A stretch of DNA of 64,000 bases from positions 141,001 through 205,000 of the forward strand of contig JAPMOS010000045.1 in the NCBI GenBank assembly GCA_027972325.1, read 5' to 3'. Both the position numbers and the translations under genes were made by a program. Origin of the DNA: Paratrimastix pyriformis. Taxonomy: Eukaryota > Preaxostyla > Paratrimastigidae. The stretch's first letter is position 1. The number at the start of each line of letters is the position of its first letter. The notes under the pieces were generated by a model that ran no database searches, had not been told where the DNA came from, and saw nothing but the letters and a program-made list of their open reading frames with translations. Shown piece by piece: positions 159 to 64,000 of the stretch.

Positions 159-1783
159 GGCGGCCCAGGCGGAAGCGGACGGGAGGATGCGGGCCTTCGA
201 GGAGGAGCACCGCACCCAACTCGCTGGTCCCCGCGCTGCCCACCGGCCCATCCCACTTCCCCATCCCATCCCTCCACCTCAAATCCCCAACCACTCGAAC
301 TGATCTCACCTCACCGCTCACCACCACTCCAGCCGAACATCCCCAACCCCAACCCCCAACCCCTGCTGCCTGGGCTGTCTCCAGTGCCCCCTGTCCACTC
401 GGCCTGACCTGGCCATGGCTTGTCATCGCTTGGCGTTGATTGCGGTGGGTGACGGGTGCGGGTGGGGTGCGCGGCTGTGGCGCGGGGGTTGAGCAGACCT
501 GCAGGAGGAGGCCGCCTCGAAGCTGCGCACCCAGACGGACCTCGAGGAGCGCCAGCAAAGGCTCCTCTTCCGCATGAAGGTCGCACCCCCCCCCCCCCCC
601 CGCGCGTCACCCCCCCCCCCCCCCATCCAGGGGTTATTCCCACATACGACCCACCTCATCGACTCCCTGTCGGTTGGTTGATTGGACGGGGCGGTCGGGT
701 GGGATATGCTTCTGGGGTGATATCCTCCTGGGGGTGATATCCTCCTGGGGGTGATATCCTCCTGGGGGGTGATATTCTCCTGGGGGGTGATACAGGCCGA
801 CCTTGAGATGCAAGTGGACGCCCTCCGCAAGCAGAACGCCGCCCTCCGGGCCGCACCGGGCGCTGCCGAGGCCGCGCACAGGTCCGCCTCCCCATGCCGC
901 CCCGTTCATGATGGCACTCGCTCCCTCCCCTTTCCCCCGGGCGCACAGGCGTCGCCCGCTCAAATGACGCTGGTTTTCTCGCGATGTGTGGCTGCCCCTG
1001 TGCTGTGCTGTGCTGTGCTTTGCTGGGTCCGGGTGGGCGGTGGGCGGGGCAGGGAGGTCGAGGAGGTGCAGCAGCGGCTGCTGGCCAACATGACCGCCGA
1101 GCGGGACGAGTGGATGCACCGCAGCGGGCAGCTCCAGGAGCAGCTGGAGGAGCTCCAGGGGGCCCTCAGGAACCAGAAGGTGCCGTCTACATCACCCCCA
1201 CCCGCCTGCCTCACCCTTCCCACCTCAGAACCCACCCCTCACCTCCTATCCCCTACTCACACGCATACATCATCTTGTATCGACTTCACCGGGGTTGGAT
1301 CCATCACCCGCCTACCTCACCCCTCACCCCCCTCTTCGACTTCACCCGGGTTGGACCCACCAATAGGAGATCGGCCGGGGGCTGATGCGGGCCATGGGCT
1401 CGACAACCGACCTCACCAGGTCCGTGGATATCCCCCCCCCCCCCCCCCCCCCCACCAGCCTCTCCCCCCCGGGAGGGCGATGGCACCGGTTTGGGCTTCG
1501 CTTGTGGATCATAACGGATACCGGCGAAAAGAAAAGCGGTGTTGATGAAAGACCCTTTGCGAAAACAACCAACAATAAGAAATCGGGAAACCCCCAAAAG
1601 AGATCGAGATCATCCCAAATCCCCCCGCCAAACAAGCAGGGCGCGCCTCCCCCCATACGACACCACAATACAATTACGACGAGACGGCCGGCAGTCCTTG
1701 GGTCACGCACGGGCCCGCCGGACGGCAACAAAGCTTGGCGCGTGCCGCAAGAGAGGCACCACCGTCAGCTTAGCCGCGGTTGA
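159..1783 (+). CDS. coiled-coil protein, 3' part (5' end missing)
   Basis: I do not recognise this gene. Its exons join in phase as 159-226, 497-579, 796-881, 1053-1179 and 1367-1419, followed by a last exon from about 1457 to a stop at 1783. The protein is dominated by Glu/Gln/Arg/Leu heptad-like sequence (LQEEAASKLRTQ, VDALRKQNAALRA, REVEEVQQRLLANM), typical of a long coiled coil with a structural or centrosomal/cytoskeletal role. Donors read GTCCCC, GTCGCA, GTCCGC, GTGCCG and GTCCGT. The start lies left of the window. The basic tail encoded by the last exon is less certain, because its stop would overlap by 14 bases the end of the convergent gene at 1770; an alternative stop in another frame lies at 1545. 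Confidence 0.55.
712..793 (+). repeat. intronic tandem repeat, about 17-bp unit
   Basis: About five imperfect copies of a unit built on CCTGGGGGTGATATCCT lie just before the acceptor of the exon starting at 796. The last copy blends into the acceptor region (TGATACAG), so the array touches the 3' splice site. Confidence 0.8.
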
Positions 1784-61200: not shown

Positions 61201-64000
61201 ATCATCCAATCATCATCCAATCATCATCCAATCATCACCACCACCACCATCATCATCATCATCATCATCATCATCATCATCATCATCATCATCATCATCA
61301 TCATCATCATCATCATCATCATCATCACTTGCAGCGGTGCCCCTGCCTGCTGCCCTGGCTGGACATCTCCCATCCCACCCTGCGTCGGCTGGAGGTGCGT
61401 TTCTGTGTCTCCGAGGGCGCGGCCGTCCGGAATGAGGAGCTGATGGTGCCGGGGCTCATCATTGACTGCCGCGGCCTCGAGGAGCTCGTGGTCTGTACCG
61501 TCGGTTGCCTCTGCATCCCCTGACCTCCCTGCACCATGTGCACCTCGCCCTTTGCCACCTGCCCTGGCACCACTACGTGGCAATTTCTTCAAACGGAGGT
61601 GTTGTGCTTGACTGGGAAAATCGTGGATAAAACCAGCACCGAGTACAGTTCAAGATTCTGACAAATCGTGGACAAAACCAGCACGTTGCGGGTAGTAGCG
61701 CAAGATCATGGACAAAACCAGCGCGGAGTTCAAGATTGGGACAAATGGTGGATATTACGCAGGAGTCCAAGATTCTGACAAATCTTCCAAGTGGGTGGTG
61801 CTGACAGGAAACACCATTCAACACCGTCTTCTGCTCACACCGACCTTTCTGACGTGCCCGCCTTTCGCCCTGGGGGTGGTGCAGGTGCGTATGGGGCCTC
61901 ATGCGGATATCGGCCAGGTCTACATCACCGCCCTCCAACAACAAGCCGGCGCTACCCCGGGGACTGTCGGCCTTTGCCCCGGCCTCGCAGTGGGTCTGCA
62001 AATCTCCCGAAAAATCAACAATGGAAATGCTTCGATCCTTACAACAAGGCAGAGCAGGCATCTTTCTTCCTCTCTGTTTTGACATCCGCACACATCTTTT
62101 CTCTCTTTGCGCACCCACCACGCCACGCCACGTCCCCATCACTGTGCCGCCGGATCCATCAGGCCACCACGCCCACCTGGCCCTGCGCCGCGTGTCCCTG
62201 ATCCGGGAGCCCCTGTCCTCGGTGGACCAATGGGCCGCCCGCCGCATCCGCGAGGTGCCCCATCGCCGCCTGATCTGCCTGGGCCCGCACAACCCCGTCC
62301 CGGAGCAGCCCGGCCACCGCCTGTTGGAGGCCACCGACCCGCGGTACTTCCTGCCCATGGTGGGCGGGCTGGCGGACCCGGCGGGCCTGCTGGCCGCCCA
62401 TCTGGCCACCCGCGAGGCGGACGCGGCCAGCGGTGGGATGTTGCCCTCGGACGGGCCCCTGCCGGGGCTGGCAGCCCGCGATCCCGCCACGGGCGCCCCC
62501 GTCCGGCTCTGCCCGCTGCTGCAGTGCTACCTGCCCGCCCTCCGCGATCTGGAGGTCTCCATGGCCGATGAACAGCGCGATTTCATGGCCTGGATCCAAC
62601 TGCCCGCCCTGGAGCGGCTGACGATGCAGCTACACCCCTTCCCGCCCCGGCGCCCAGGCCAGGAGGTGGGCAGCAGCCTGCATCTGCGCTGCCCGGCCCT
62701 GCGCCACCTCGCGCTCTCAACGGCACCCGAGTGGGTTGTGGGCAGGCCCTGGCAGGCCAAGGGCGCCACGGGCAGCCCGTATCTCAGCACCCCGCTTCTG
62801 AGGATGGAAATCGAGTGCCCCGCCCTCATCGTCCGTGTGCCGCCCTGCGCCCACACCACCGCATACGCACTCACACACTTACGACAGTGCACGGCGCACG
62901 AGCACACAGCCACGGACGCAGTGACAAAGCTCTTCGACCACCTCTCTGCTTTTTTTTTTCATGTCCCGTGACCTCTGGATGGCACGCACACACTTCGTTC
63001 CTTCTTTACTCGACACACATTCATGTGTCCTCATCCATCCACCTCACCATCGCCACCTGGTTCTGTCCTGATCCGTCCCGGTTGCGTTGGGGTGCGCGTC
63101 TGCAGCATGCCGACTGCGACACCGCGGTCTTCGGGCCGGCGATGGAGGCTGTGGAGGCGGCCTGGGCGGCGGCGGGCATCAACCCGGCAAAGCCGCCACG
63201 AATGCCCCGCATCGCCCGGACACCTGAGGGTCCGCCCCTCCCGACACCGACACAGGGCAACCAGTGACCCGCCTTGAGACATACGACACAAACGACACAA
63301 ACTACTCACGACACACAAACGACACAAACTACGAACGACAACGACGAACGACACACAAACTACGAACGACACACAAACGATACACAACGACACACAAACG
63401 ACACACAAACGACACACAAACGACACACAAACGACACAAAGGATACTAATGACAAAAACGACAAAATGGCACCTGAAAATGCACTGACGGACGTACAGCA
63501 CCGACACACAGACACGACACGCACACTGACACACGGCACCTCTCCTCTCACAGCGGTGGCCGCACAGGAAGCAGACGAGTGGGCGGCCTTTGCGGCAGGC
63601 GAGACGCGACGCCGGACGGCCGAAGGGGCGGCCCTGAAGGCGGCCGACGATCAATTCGAGACCAGCATGCGGTGGGAGGTGGAAAGTGCCCTGGAGGGTC
63701 GCGAGGCACGCCGGGCCTCGGTAAAGAACGCAAAGGCGCGCGAACGTGCTGTCCGTGGGGATGCCCTCGCCCTCGCCCCACCCCCACCATTGGTCACAAG
63801 CGCCGTCCATTCAATCAGTCATCAACCATCACCCTCATCATCACGCAATCATCATCAACCATCGTCATCATCAAGTCAATCACCATCACTATCCAATCAT
63901 CATCACCATCCAATCATCATCATCATCATCAACCATCGTCATCATCAAGTCAATCACCATCACTATCCAATCATCATCACCATCCAATCATCATCATCAT
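58232..64000 (+). CDS. F-box-like leucine-rich-repeat protein (3' end beyond window)
   Basis: Supported exons: 58232-58794, 58853-59156, 59526-59667, one starting 59861 and ending about 60939 (with an internal frame change needing another intron), 61335-61490, 62163-62830, 63106-63229 and 63554-63750. The N-terminus EGLPSDVLALIYEHF with LGRVSSRFWHAVAQV is F-box-like. LRR-type segments follow (MPHVTDLRLVC; LPFLRSLSLPEI; LVPRLDRLTLRGLM; LPCLQSLKLWFGD; HPTLRRLEVRF; LPALERLTMQL; CPALRHLALS). An acidic Lys/Asp-rich linker lies at about 60060-60360. The final exons are charged coiled coil (DDQFETSMRWEVESALE). An alternative start is 58184. Likely an SCF substrate receptor. Coding around 61490-62160 is unresolved. 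Confidence 0.6.
59170..59460 (+). repeat. CCAATCATCAT / (CAT)n tract in F-box/LRR intron 2
   Basis: The same dispersed CATCCAATCAT family seen at 41935 and 63800 begins soon after donor GTCGGG and ends in about 17 pure CAT triplets. Confidence 0.9.
61040..61327 (+). repeat. (AATTCATCATCC)n then (CAT)n
   Basis: About 13 exact dodecamers, then CCAATCATCAT units, then about 27 CAT triplets reaching the acceptor CTTGCAG at 61334. Confidence 0.97.
61617..61790 (+). repeat. 33-36-bp tandem repeat
   Basis: Four or five diverged copies share GACAAATCGTGGA, AAAACCAGC and TTCAAGATT. This is the only AT-balanced long-unit repeat in the window. Confidence 0.8.
63264..63450 (+). repeat. (ACACAAACGAC)n imperfect array
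   Basis: ACGACACAAACGA-type units in the intron after exon 63106-63229; no G-rich or CAT element is mixed in. Confidence 0.85.
63800..64000 (+). repeat. CCAATCATCATCACCAT tract to window end
   Basis: A unit of about 67 bp containing CATCGTCATCATCAAGTCAA occurs at least twice, and the array continues beyond the window. Confidence 0.85.

Follow-up and report, generated by a model that had tools for sequence, protein, structure and literature searches.

How are introns recognised in a GC-rich genome whose 5′ splice sites (donors) have largely left the usual consensus? For major (U2-type) introns that consensus is GTRAGT, which is the common form rather than a requirement of the class. In a stretch of 64,000 nucleotides from Paratrimastix pyriformis (GenBank assembly GCA_027972325.1, contig JAPMOS010000045.1, positions 141,001 to 205,000 of the forward strand; hereafter the window), the original prediction had read a genome-wide shift of donors to GTCYG, and had suggested looking for compensatory changes opposite donor positions +3 and +4 in U1 and U6, two of the small nuclear RNAs (snRNAs). 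From the sequences we estimate, with a probability of roughly 87%, that in this organism the first step of donor reading by the major spliceosome has been re-tuned, nucleotides 5 and 6 of U1 having gone from UU to AG and the donors from GTRAG to GTC(Y)G. The features of the window from which the question arose are listed below in window coordinates.

2789..2940, + strand: intron of the eS21 gene; donor AGTG/GTCTGC, acceptor TTTAG/CTCC; the joined protein aligns ungapped to eS21 in the PDB across the junction VELYTPRKC/SATNRLI
12790..12844, + strand: intron of a cyclophilin gene; donor CCTG/GTCAGT; the upstream exon matches cyclophilins as far as FHRVIPG, and the joined exons give a Pfam Pro_isomerase match
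12845..12858, + strand: cyclophilin microexon of 14 bases (FMAQ), followed by the next donor, CACAG/GTTCGG, at 12859; read by eye from the frame and consistent with the Pfam match
22119..22161, + strand: intron of the TK1 gene; donor GACG/GTCGGC, acceptor TGTAG/GCAC; the joined protein and a cytosolic thymidine kinase of the PDB align without gaps over VIVAALDG/TFQR
35492..35539, + strand: intron of a phosphoesterase-like (‘MPP’) gene; donor GCCG/GTCTGT, join DLFLAG/HTHAGQIFPF
54867..54959, + strand: intron of a TM9SF gene; donor CCTG/GTCTCG, the join resting on reading of the sequence
159..63750, no strand assigned: span with 105 introns according to the trained gene finder; +3 is C in 77, G in 17, T in 10 and A in 1, and 46 are GTCYG

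The coordinates of the five named donors proved exact: all five begin with GTC (GTCTG, GTCAG, GTCGG, GTCTG and GTCTC, in the order above), and their exons join in frame. The residues across the ‘MPP’ junction form what we take to be a phosphoesterase-type motif; this segment had no Pfam match, and the junction rests on reading of the motif. For the TM9SF protein we obtained no PDB match and a Pfam EMP70 match below the cut-off (22.9 vs 27 bits) that is located outside the junction. The wider count, of about 105 donors with roughly 90 GTC and no GTA, held for the GTC majority but not for its size, since the trained finder gave 77 GTC and one GTA among 105. GTCCG and GTCTG, which were said to be the usual forms, are indeed the commonest class, although their share was overstated and is close to half (GTCYG in 46 of 105 donors of the window and in 89 of the 168 confident junctions described next).

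Donors were counted with a purpose-written two-strand gene finder in a sample made up of the window (C388:141001-205000) and 20 stretches of 10 kb (9 contigs), two of which contained 2,500 N each; the genome assembly searched comprised 56.06 Mb in 495 contigs. The finder started with GT as its sole donor rule and no donor matrix. Before any donor matrix was introduced, GTCCG was the commonest start in round 1, and GTCCG and GTCTG were the top two in rounds 2 and 3. After training, the 458 predicted introns had C at +3 at a frequency of 0.72, G at 0.16, T at 0.11 and A at 0.02, with G at +5 at 0.61. The trained finder misses eS21, cyclophilin and TK1, over-predicts in weakly conserved genes and surely includes some false introns. 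To reduce circularity, we then removed the donor matrix and restricted the count to junctions flanked by strong coding sequence, which left 168 of 448 introns; in this neutral scoring the coding, intron and acceptor models are still those trained together with the donor matrix.

The 168 confident junctions comprised 130 GTC, 21 GTG, 15 GTT and 2 GTA, and 89 of them were GTCYG; they depart from GTRAGT in having C at +3 in 130 cases and A in 2. Among GTs in the interior of the same introns, GTC made up 35% and GTCYG 7% (donors versus interior GTs, n = 168: p = 2.5e-29 for GTC and 2.0e-56 for GTCYG). When nine other dinucleotides were forced as the donor, NNCYG appeared in 2-7% of junctions, compared with 53% for GT. 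The window alone contributed 29 confident junctions (+3 C in 17, G in 7, T in 3 and A in 2), and the 139 outside it comprised 113 GTC, 78 of all 139 being GTCYG and none GTA; 18 of the 20 stretches contributed to these, and the other two had no confident junction. The shift that had been called genome-wide is therefore seen across the contigs sampled. At +4, the 168 donors had C in 60% and T in 21%, near the composition of the C-rich intron starts; the introns were 41% C and 36 to 401 bases long (5th-95th percentile). A branch-site k-mer search gave nothing clear.

The same motif appeared in alignments made without any splice rule. Exons of the CCT chaperonin genes were located genome-wide and eight loci fetched, of which four, on four contigs, were aligned to PDB sequences with a protein-to-DNA aligner that has no rule on intron ends; a GT-AG placement was accepted within 2 score units of the best. 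This placed 19 introns, 12 of them with a GT-AG placement (two of the 12 not tied with the best). All 12 junctions were GTC and 11 were GTCYG, with six GTCTG and five GTCCG, the last being GTCCC. Models from the gene finder aligned to PDB sequences ungapped for CCT eta and beta, with one single-residue gap for epsilon and with four short gaps for theta. Over all eight CCT loci, a hand count of the trained models gave 31 GTC and 28 GTCYG among 33 GT donors, and T at +4 in 14 of the 31 GTC donors, a modest excess (p = 0.01); these models depend on the learned donor matrix, and some are visibly imperfect (L040, L042).

The donor-reading stretch of U1 is generally thought to be near-frozen in evolution. 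The Rfam U1 model identified eight copies on eight contigs (41 of 992 candidates scored), and a BLAST search of the genome with the U1 body returned the same eight and no others. One of these genes lies close to the window:

C388:215803-215958, - strand: U1 gene on the same contig as the window, about 10.8 kb past the window's right end

All eight U1 genes begin ATACAGACCTTG (AUAC-AG-ACCUUG), where the family consensus is AUACUUACCUGG (AUAC-UU-ACCUGG): nucleotides 5 and 6 are AG for UU, and nucleotide 11 is U. Nucleotides 3-9 read ACAGACC in 8/8 copies and in none the standard ACUUACC. Every copy matches the Rfam model end to end, from 1 to 166, and the alignments seen (five of six copies scanned) display the U1 fold, an Sm-like site and a donor-reading 5′ end that starts at nucleotide 1. 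A compensatory change opposite +3/+4, as had been suggested for U1, is thus present in all eight genes. By eye, a tandem repeat of ATACAGACACATAC-like units was also seen upstream of one U1 gene (locus L008), and it contains the new U1 5′ word.

U6 is encoded by four identical copies, all above the Rfam cut-off, with a normal ACAGAGA. Nine of the ten U2 matches and all seven U5 matches were above the cut-off, GUAGUA being kept in the three U2 copies read and GCCUUUUAC in the one U5 copy read, so that U1, U2, U5 and U6 RNA genes of the major spliceosome were all found in the genome. The word CCCATAA starts 54-67 bases upstream of all eight U1, all four U6, the three fetched U2, the one fetched U5 and a U12 candidate, and is mostly preceded by a run of T. 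In word and distance this element fits the DUSE of dictyostelids, which is [AT]CCCA[AT]AA at about -63 (PMC3188802, PMC7919456; here and below, papers cited by PMC number are represented by parts of their text). This fit supports the view that these are real, transcribed genes, and the U1 copies, which carry the same snRNA promoter element as U6, U2 and U5, are presumably expressed.

The pattern TTTTTN{4,9}CCCATAA occurs 1145 times forward and 403 times in reverse across the genome, compared with 5 and 12 times for the backward pattern (overlapping starts counted). Among the places listed it is dense on C8:3144-18816 and C9:107594-111673, clustered as if before many small RNA genes. Three stretches with the promoter-like word (L028, L033 and L034) gave no Rfam match at E <= 0.01. 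At locus L044 (152-273, - strand), two below-cut-off matches to the small nucleolar RNA family sR5 probably reflect a simple repeat of GATGATGA.

We compared the pairing of the altered U1 with donors and with 949 decoys. The G at U1 position 6, opposite +3C, pairs with 86% of donors and 54% of decoys, whereas the standard base at that position would pair with 14% of donors and 46% of decoys. Position 4 of the organism's own U1 pairs with 69% of donors (decoys 34%) and position 9 with 58% (36%), and the mean duplex energy is -5.97 kcal/mol with the own U1 and -3.87 kcal/mol with the standard one. Since the own U1 pairs more, and the standard U1 less, with these donors, +3C and G6 form a clear compensatory pair, which as a matter of sequence complementarity is strongly supported.

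For U6 the expectation of mispairing at +3/+4 turned out to be wrong. In the register that sets the central methylated A of ACAGA opposite +4 (PMC10581693; numbering 41-ACAGAGA-47 as in PMC13326754), +3C lies opposite G44 and +4U opposite A43; both are Watson-Crick partners, which +3A and +4A are not, and GTCTGT could pair with the unchanged ACAGA box over its whole length. U6 needs no change because TCTGT already complements this box, and none was found: the box is unaltered in 4/4 copies, so compensation in U6 was rejected.

In the re-tuned spliceosome that we propose, G6 of U1 would pair with +3C, C4 would still pair with +5G, and C8 and A7 would pair with the GU; A5 could pair with +4U, which is present in a minority of donors. 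With the U6 ACAGA box, U5 loop 1 and the U2 branch word unchanged, U1 and U6 could then read one word. As for the order of events, donors may have drifted to the U6-complementary GTCTG, U1 may have followed, and GC-biased mutation may then have turned many +4 T into C, so that an older GTCTG consensus would have been partly eroded to GTCCG. An A at U1 position 5 fits the +4T of the GTC donors in the CCT models (14 of 31), with the caveat that these come from the trained matrix. That the duplex between U1 and donor forms in cells, and that the changes came in this order, is what we infer.

Several results weigh against this reading. When any dinucleotide was permitted, 46 of 222 confident junctions began with GT and boundaries became imprecise, with GTCCG (20) and GTCTG (8) remaining the commonest starts. 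In the rule-free CCT alignments, 7 of 19 junctions had no GT-AG placement, which we take to be misplacement in weakly aligned stretches. The U1 copies score 50.8-60.2 bits, under the Rfam gathering cut-off of 69.5. Position 5 fares poorly: its A pairs with donors and decoys alike at 21%, and of the 16 possible pairs at positions 5-6 the best is GG (-9.19), while CG slightly outdoes the real AG (-6.02 vs -5.97) and UG comes close to it (-5.61). The excess of +4T was found only in the CCT models built with the trained matrix, T and C at +4 being near the intron background among the 168 junctions. Among +3C donors, +4T occurred in 11 of 57 where -1G or +5G was absent and in 16 of 73 where both were present; it was thus not enriched where one of them was absent, which speaks against full compensation at position 5. 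The A5/+4 pairing is therefore not strong, as +4 is mostly C and near intron background.

A bolder version, which we offer tentatively and think somewhat improbable, is that U1 was re-coded into a copy of the donor-reading word of U6, such that TCTGTAT (+2 to +8) would look the same to U1 as to U6, which reads it next. U1 (AUACAGACC) and U6 (AUACAGAGA) both contain AUACAGA; that they share the word follows from the sequences, and selection for it would be part of the re-coding. If this were true, the conflict at +3/+4 between the U1-best GUAAGU and the U6-best GUCUGU of other eukaryotes would be gone, and at the hand-over U6 would replace U1 as like for like. In that case a modification of A5, inosine being one candidate, might account for the frequent C at +4 opposite it.

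The U1 change could also be relaxed drift in a system where donors are read mainly by protein (U1C, U1-70K, Prp8) together with U6, and where the match to +3C came about by chance. Splicing with no recognisable U1 RNA is described for Entamoeba histolytica (PMC13292270), Cyanidioschyzon merolae is without U1 genes (PMC11732430), and position 5 shows no gain in pairing over decoys. We nevertheless consider drift unlikely, because AUAC and ACCU in the rest of the U1 5′ end are kept in 8/8 copies and the model is matched end to end, which indicates that the region is not drifting freely; moreover, of the three bases that could have replaced U at position 6, the copies carry the only one able to pair with the new +3 consensus. 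A search for the U1-C protein gave no clear candidate: the best zf-U1 match looks WBP4-like, and a second match scored 23.6 bits over 14 positions. Far less probable still is an artefact in which C-rich introns and a self-training gene finder make GTCYG look like a donor. The C content of the introns, the joint training of the coding and intron models with the donor matrix and the low share of GT in the absence of a dinucleotide rule would favour it, but the motif was on top in the first rounds without a donor matrix and appeared in the rule-free alignments. The forced-dinucleotide controls, in which the motif was absent, and the interior-GT controls led us to reject a composition artefact.

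Common descent of the introns, by recent spread of introner-like elements with the same ends, is equally hard to credit. Such elements exist elsewhere, but blastn among the 168 introns (E <= 1e-3, low-complexity filter on) gave nine matches in eight pairs, of 16 to 62 bases, in introns whose lengths range from 36 to 401 bases (5th-95th percentile); introner descent was rejected, as there was no full-length sharing in this sample. Least credible to us is that these are U12-type (minor) introns whose ends have changed, a situation reported for Physarum, although the genome has one U12-like gene that carries the common promoter element:

C432:103343-103517 (locus L048): U12-like snRNA gene, 44.9 bits, below the cut-off, with the shared promoter word

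This match is single, and its branch-reading word is close to the family consensus. The donors do not resemble RTATCCTT, the U12-type donor motif, and the presence of eight U1 genes and of nine U2 genes above the cut-off favours the major spliceosome. A U12-type origin was rejected because the donor tables hold no RTATCCTT-like motif and U12 is a single copy below the cut-off. A minor spliceosome may be present; U11 was not found in the genome, by a search that had no positive control.

We also asked how the re-tuning of U1 compares with other known departures in donor reading. This genome has above-cut-off matches for METTL16 (PF05971, FCMCNPPFF) and for SNRNP27 (YRQYMNRKG motif), and we rejected the absence of either METTL16 or the SNRNP27 methionine as a cause. 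By count along the human protein, the methionine of YRQYMNRKG is presumably the one of SNRNP27K in the yeast survey cited next. In Saccharomycotina, switches at +4 track METTL16 and SNRNP27K (Parker et al. 2023, PMC10581693); since both proteins have matches here, the donor shift looks like a different route from that of the yeasts. That survey tested compensation for the +4 switches and, in the part of its text drawn on here, found U1 ACUUACC invariant wherever U1 was found (227 of 230 genomes and 9 of 10 outgroups), with U6 ACAGA invariant too (PMC10581693). It thus saw no compensating change, whereas one is seen here. Its hypothesis that an A at U1 position 5 could compensate a change of +4 from A to U agrees with the A at position 5 in P. 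pyriformis, but here positions 5 and 6 are both changed and +3 is the main donor change.

Other systems differ in which component has moved. The diplonemid S. specki has a second U1 gene whose donor-reading 5′ end is altered to a run of C, but a normal U1 accompanies it, and its pairing with ordinary donors is described as comparable (PMC12621601), whereas here 8/8 copies are changed and the donors follow. In the tunicate Fritillaria, intron ends are likewise changed genome-wide, but with a strictly kept U1 5′ end and with U2AF paralogues and m6A invoked (PMC13326754); here it is U1 that changed, while the introns keep their GT-AG ends. Cyanidioschyzon merolae also departs from standard donor reading, but through a changed U6 ACAGA box (PMC10581693), and Entamoeba does so with U1 missing (PMC13292270), whereas in P. 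pyriformis U6 is standard and U1 is present but changed. Laboratory U1 suppressor experiments restored pairing by changing donor and U1 together at engineered sites (PMC11732430); this would be a natural, genome-wide counterpart, with a joint shift of the donors in the sampled stretches and of every U1 gene identified. A U1 with a changed 5′ end alongside GTCYG donors did not turn up in the open-licence literature; the literal U1 word was not searched for, and a subscription paper may exist. Because C at +3 now suits U1 and U6 alike, the organism could show directly which of the two, through its pairing, determines the donor consensus. In such a lineage, gene finders built on the standard donor consensus will fail.

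Turning to the window itself, its GC content is about 0.57-0.71 in 4-kb bins. By eye, the cyclophilin gene has an F-box-like N-terminus ahead of the cyclophilin domain. At 42419-43863 and 44901-45781 of the window, long low-complexity stretches (CMAVWLYG-type and poly-Ser/poly-Ile frames) were called coding by the gene finder.

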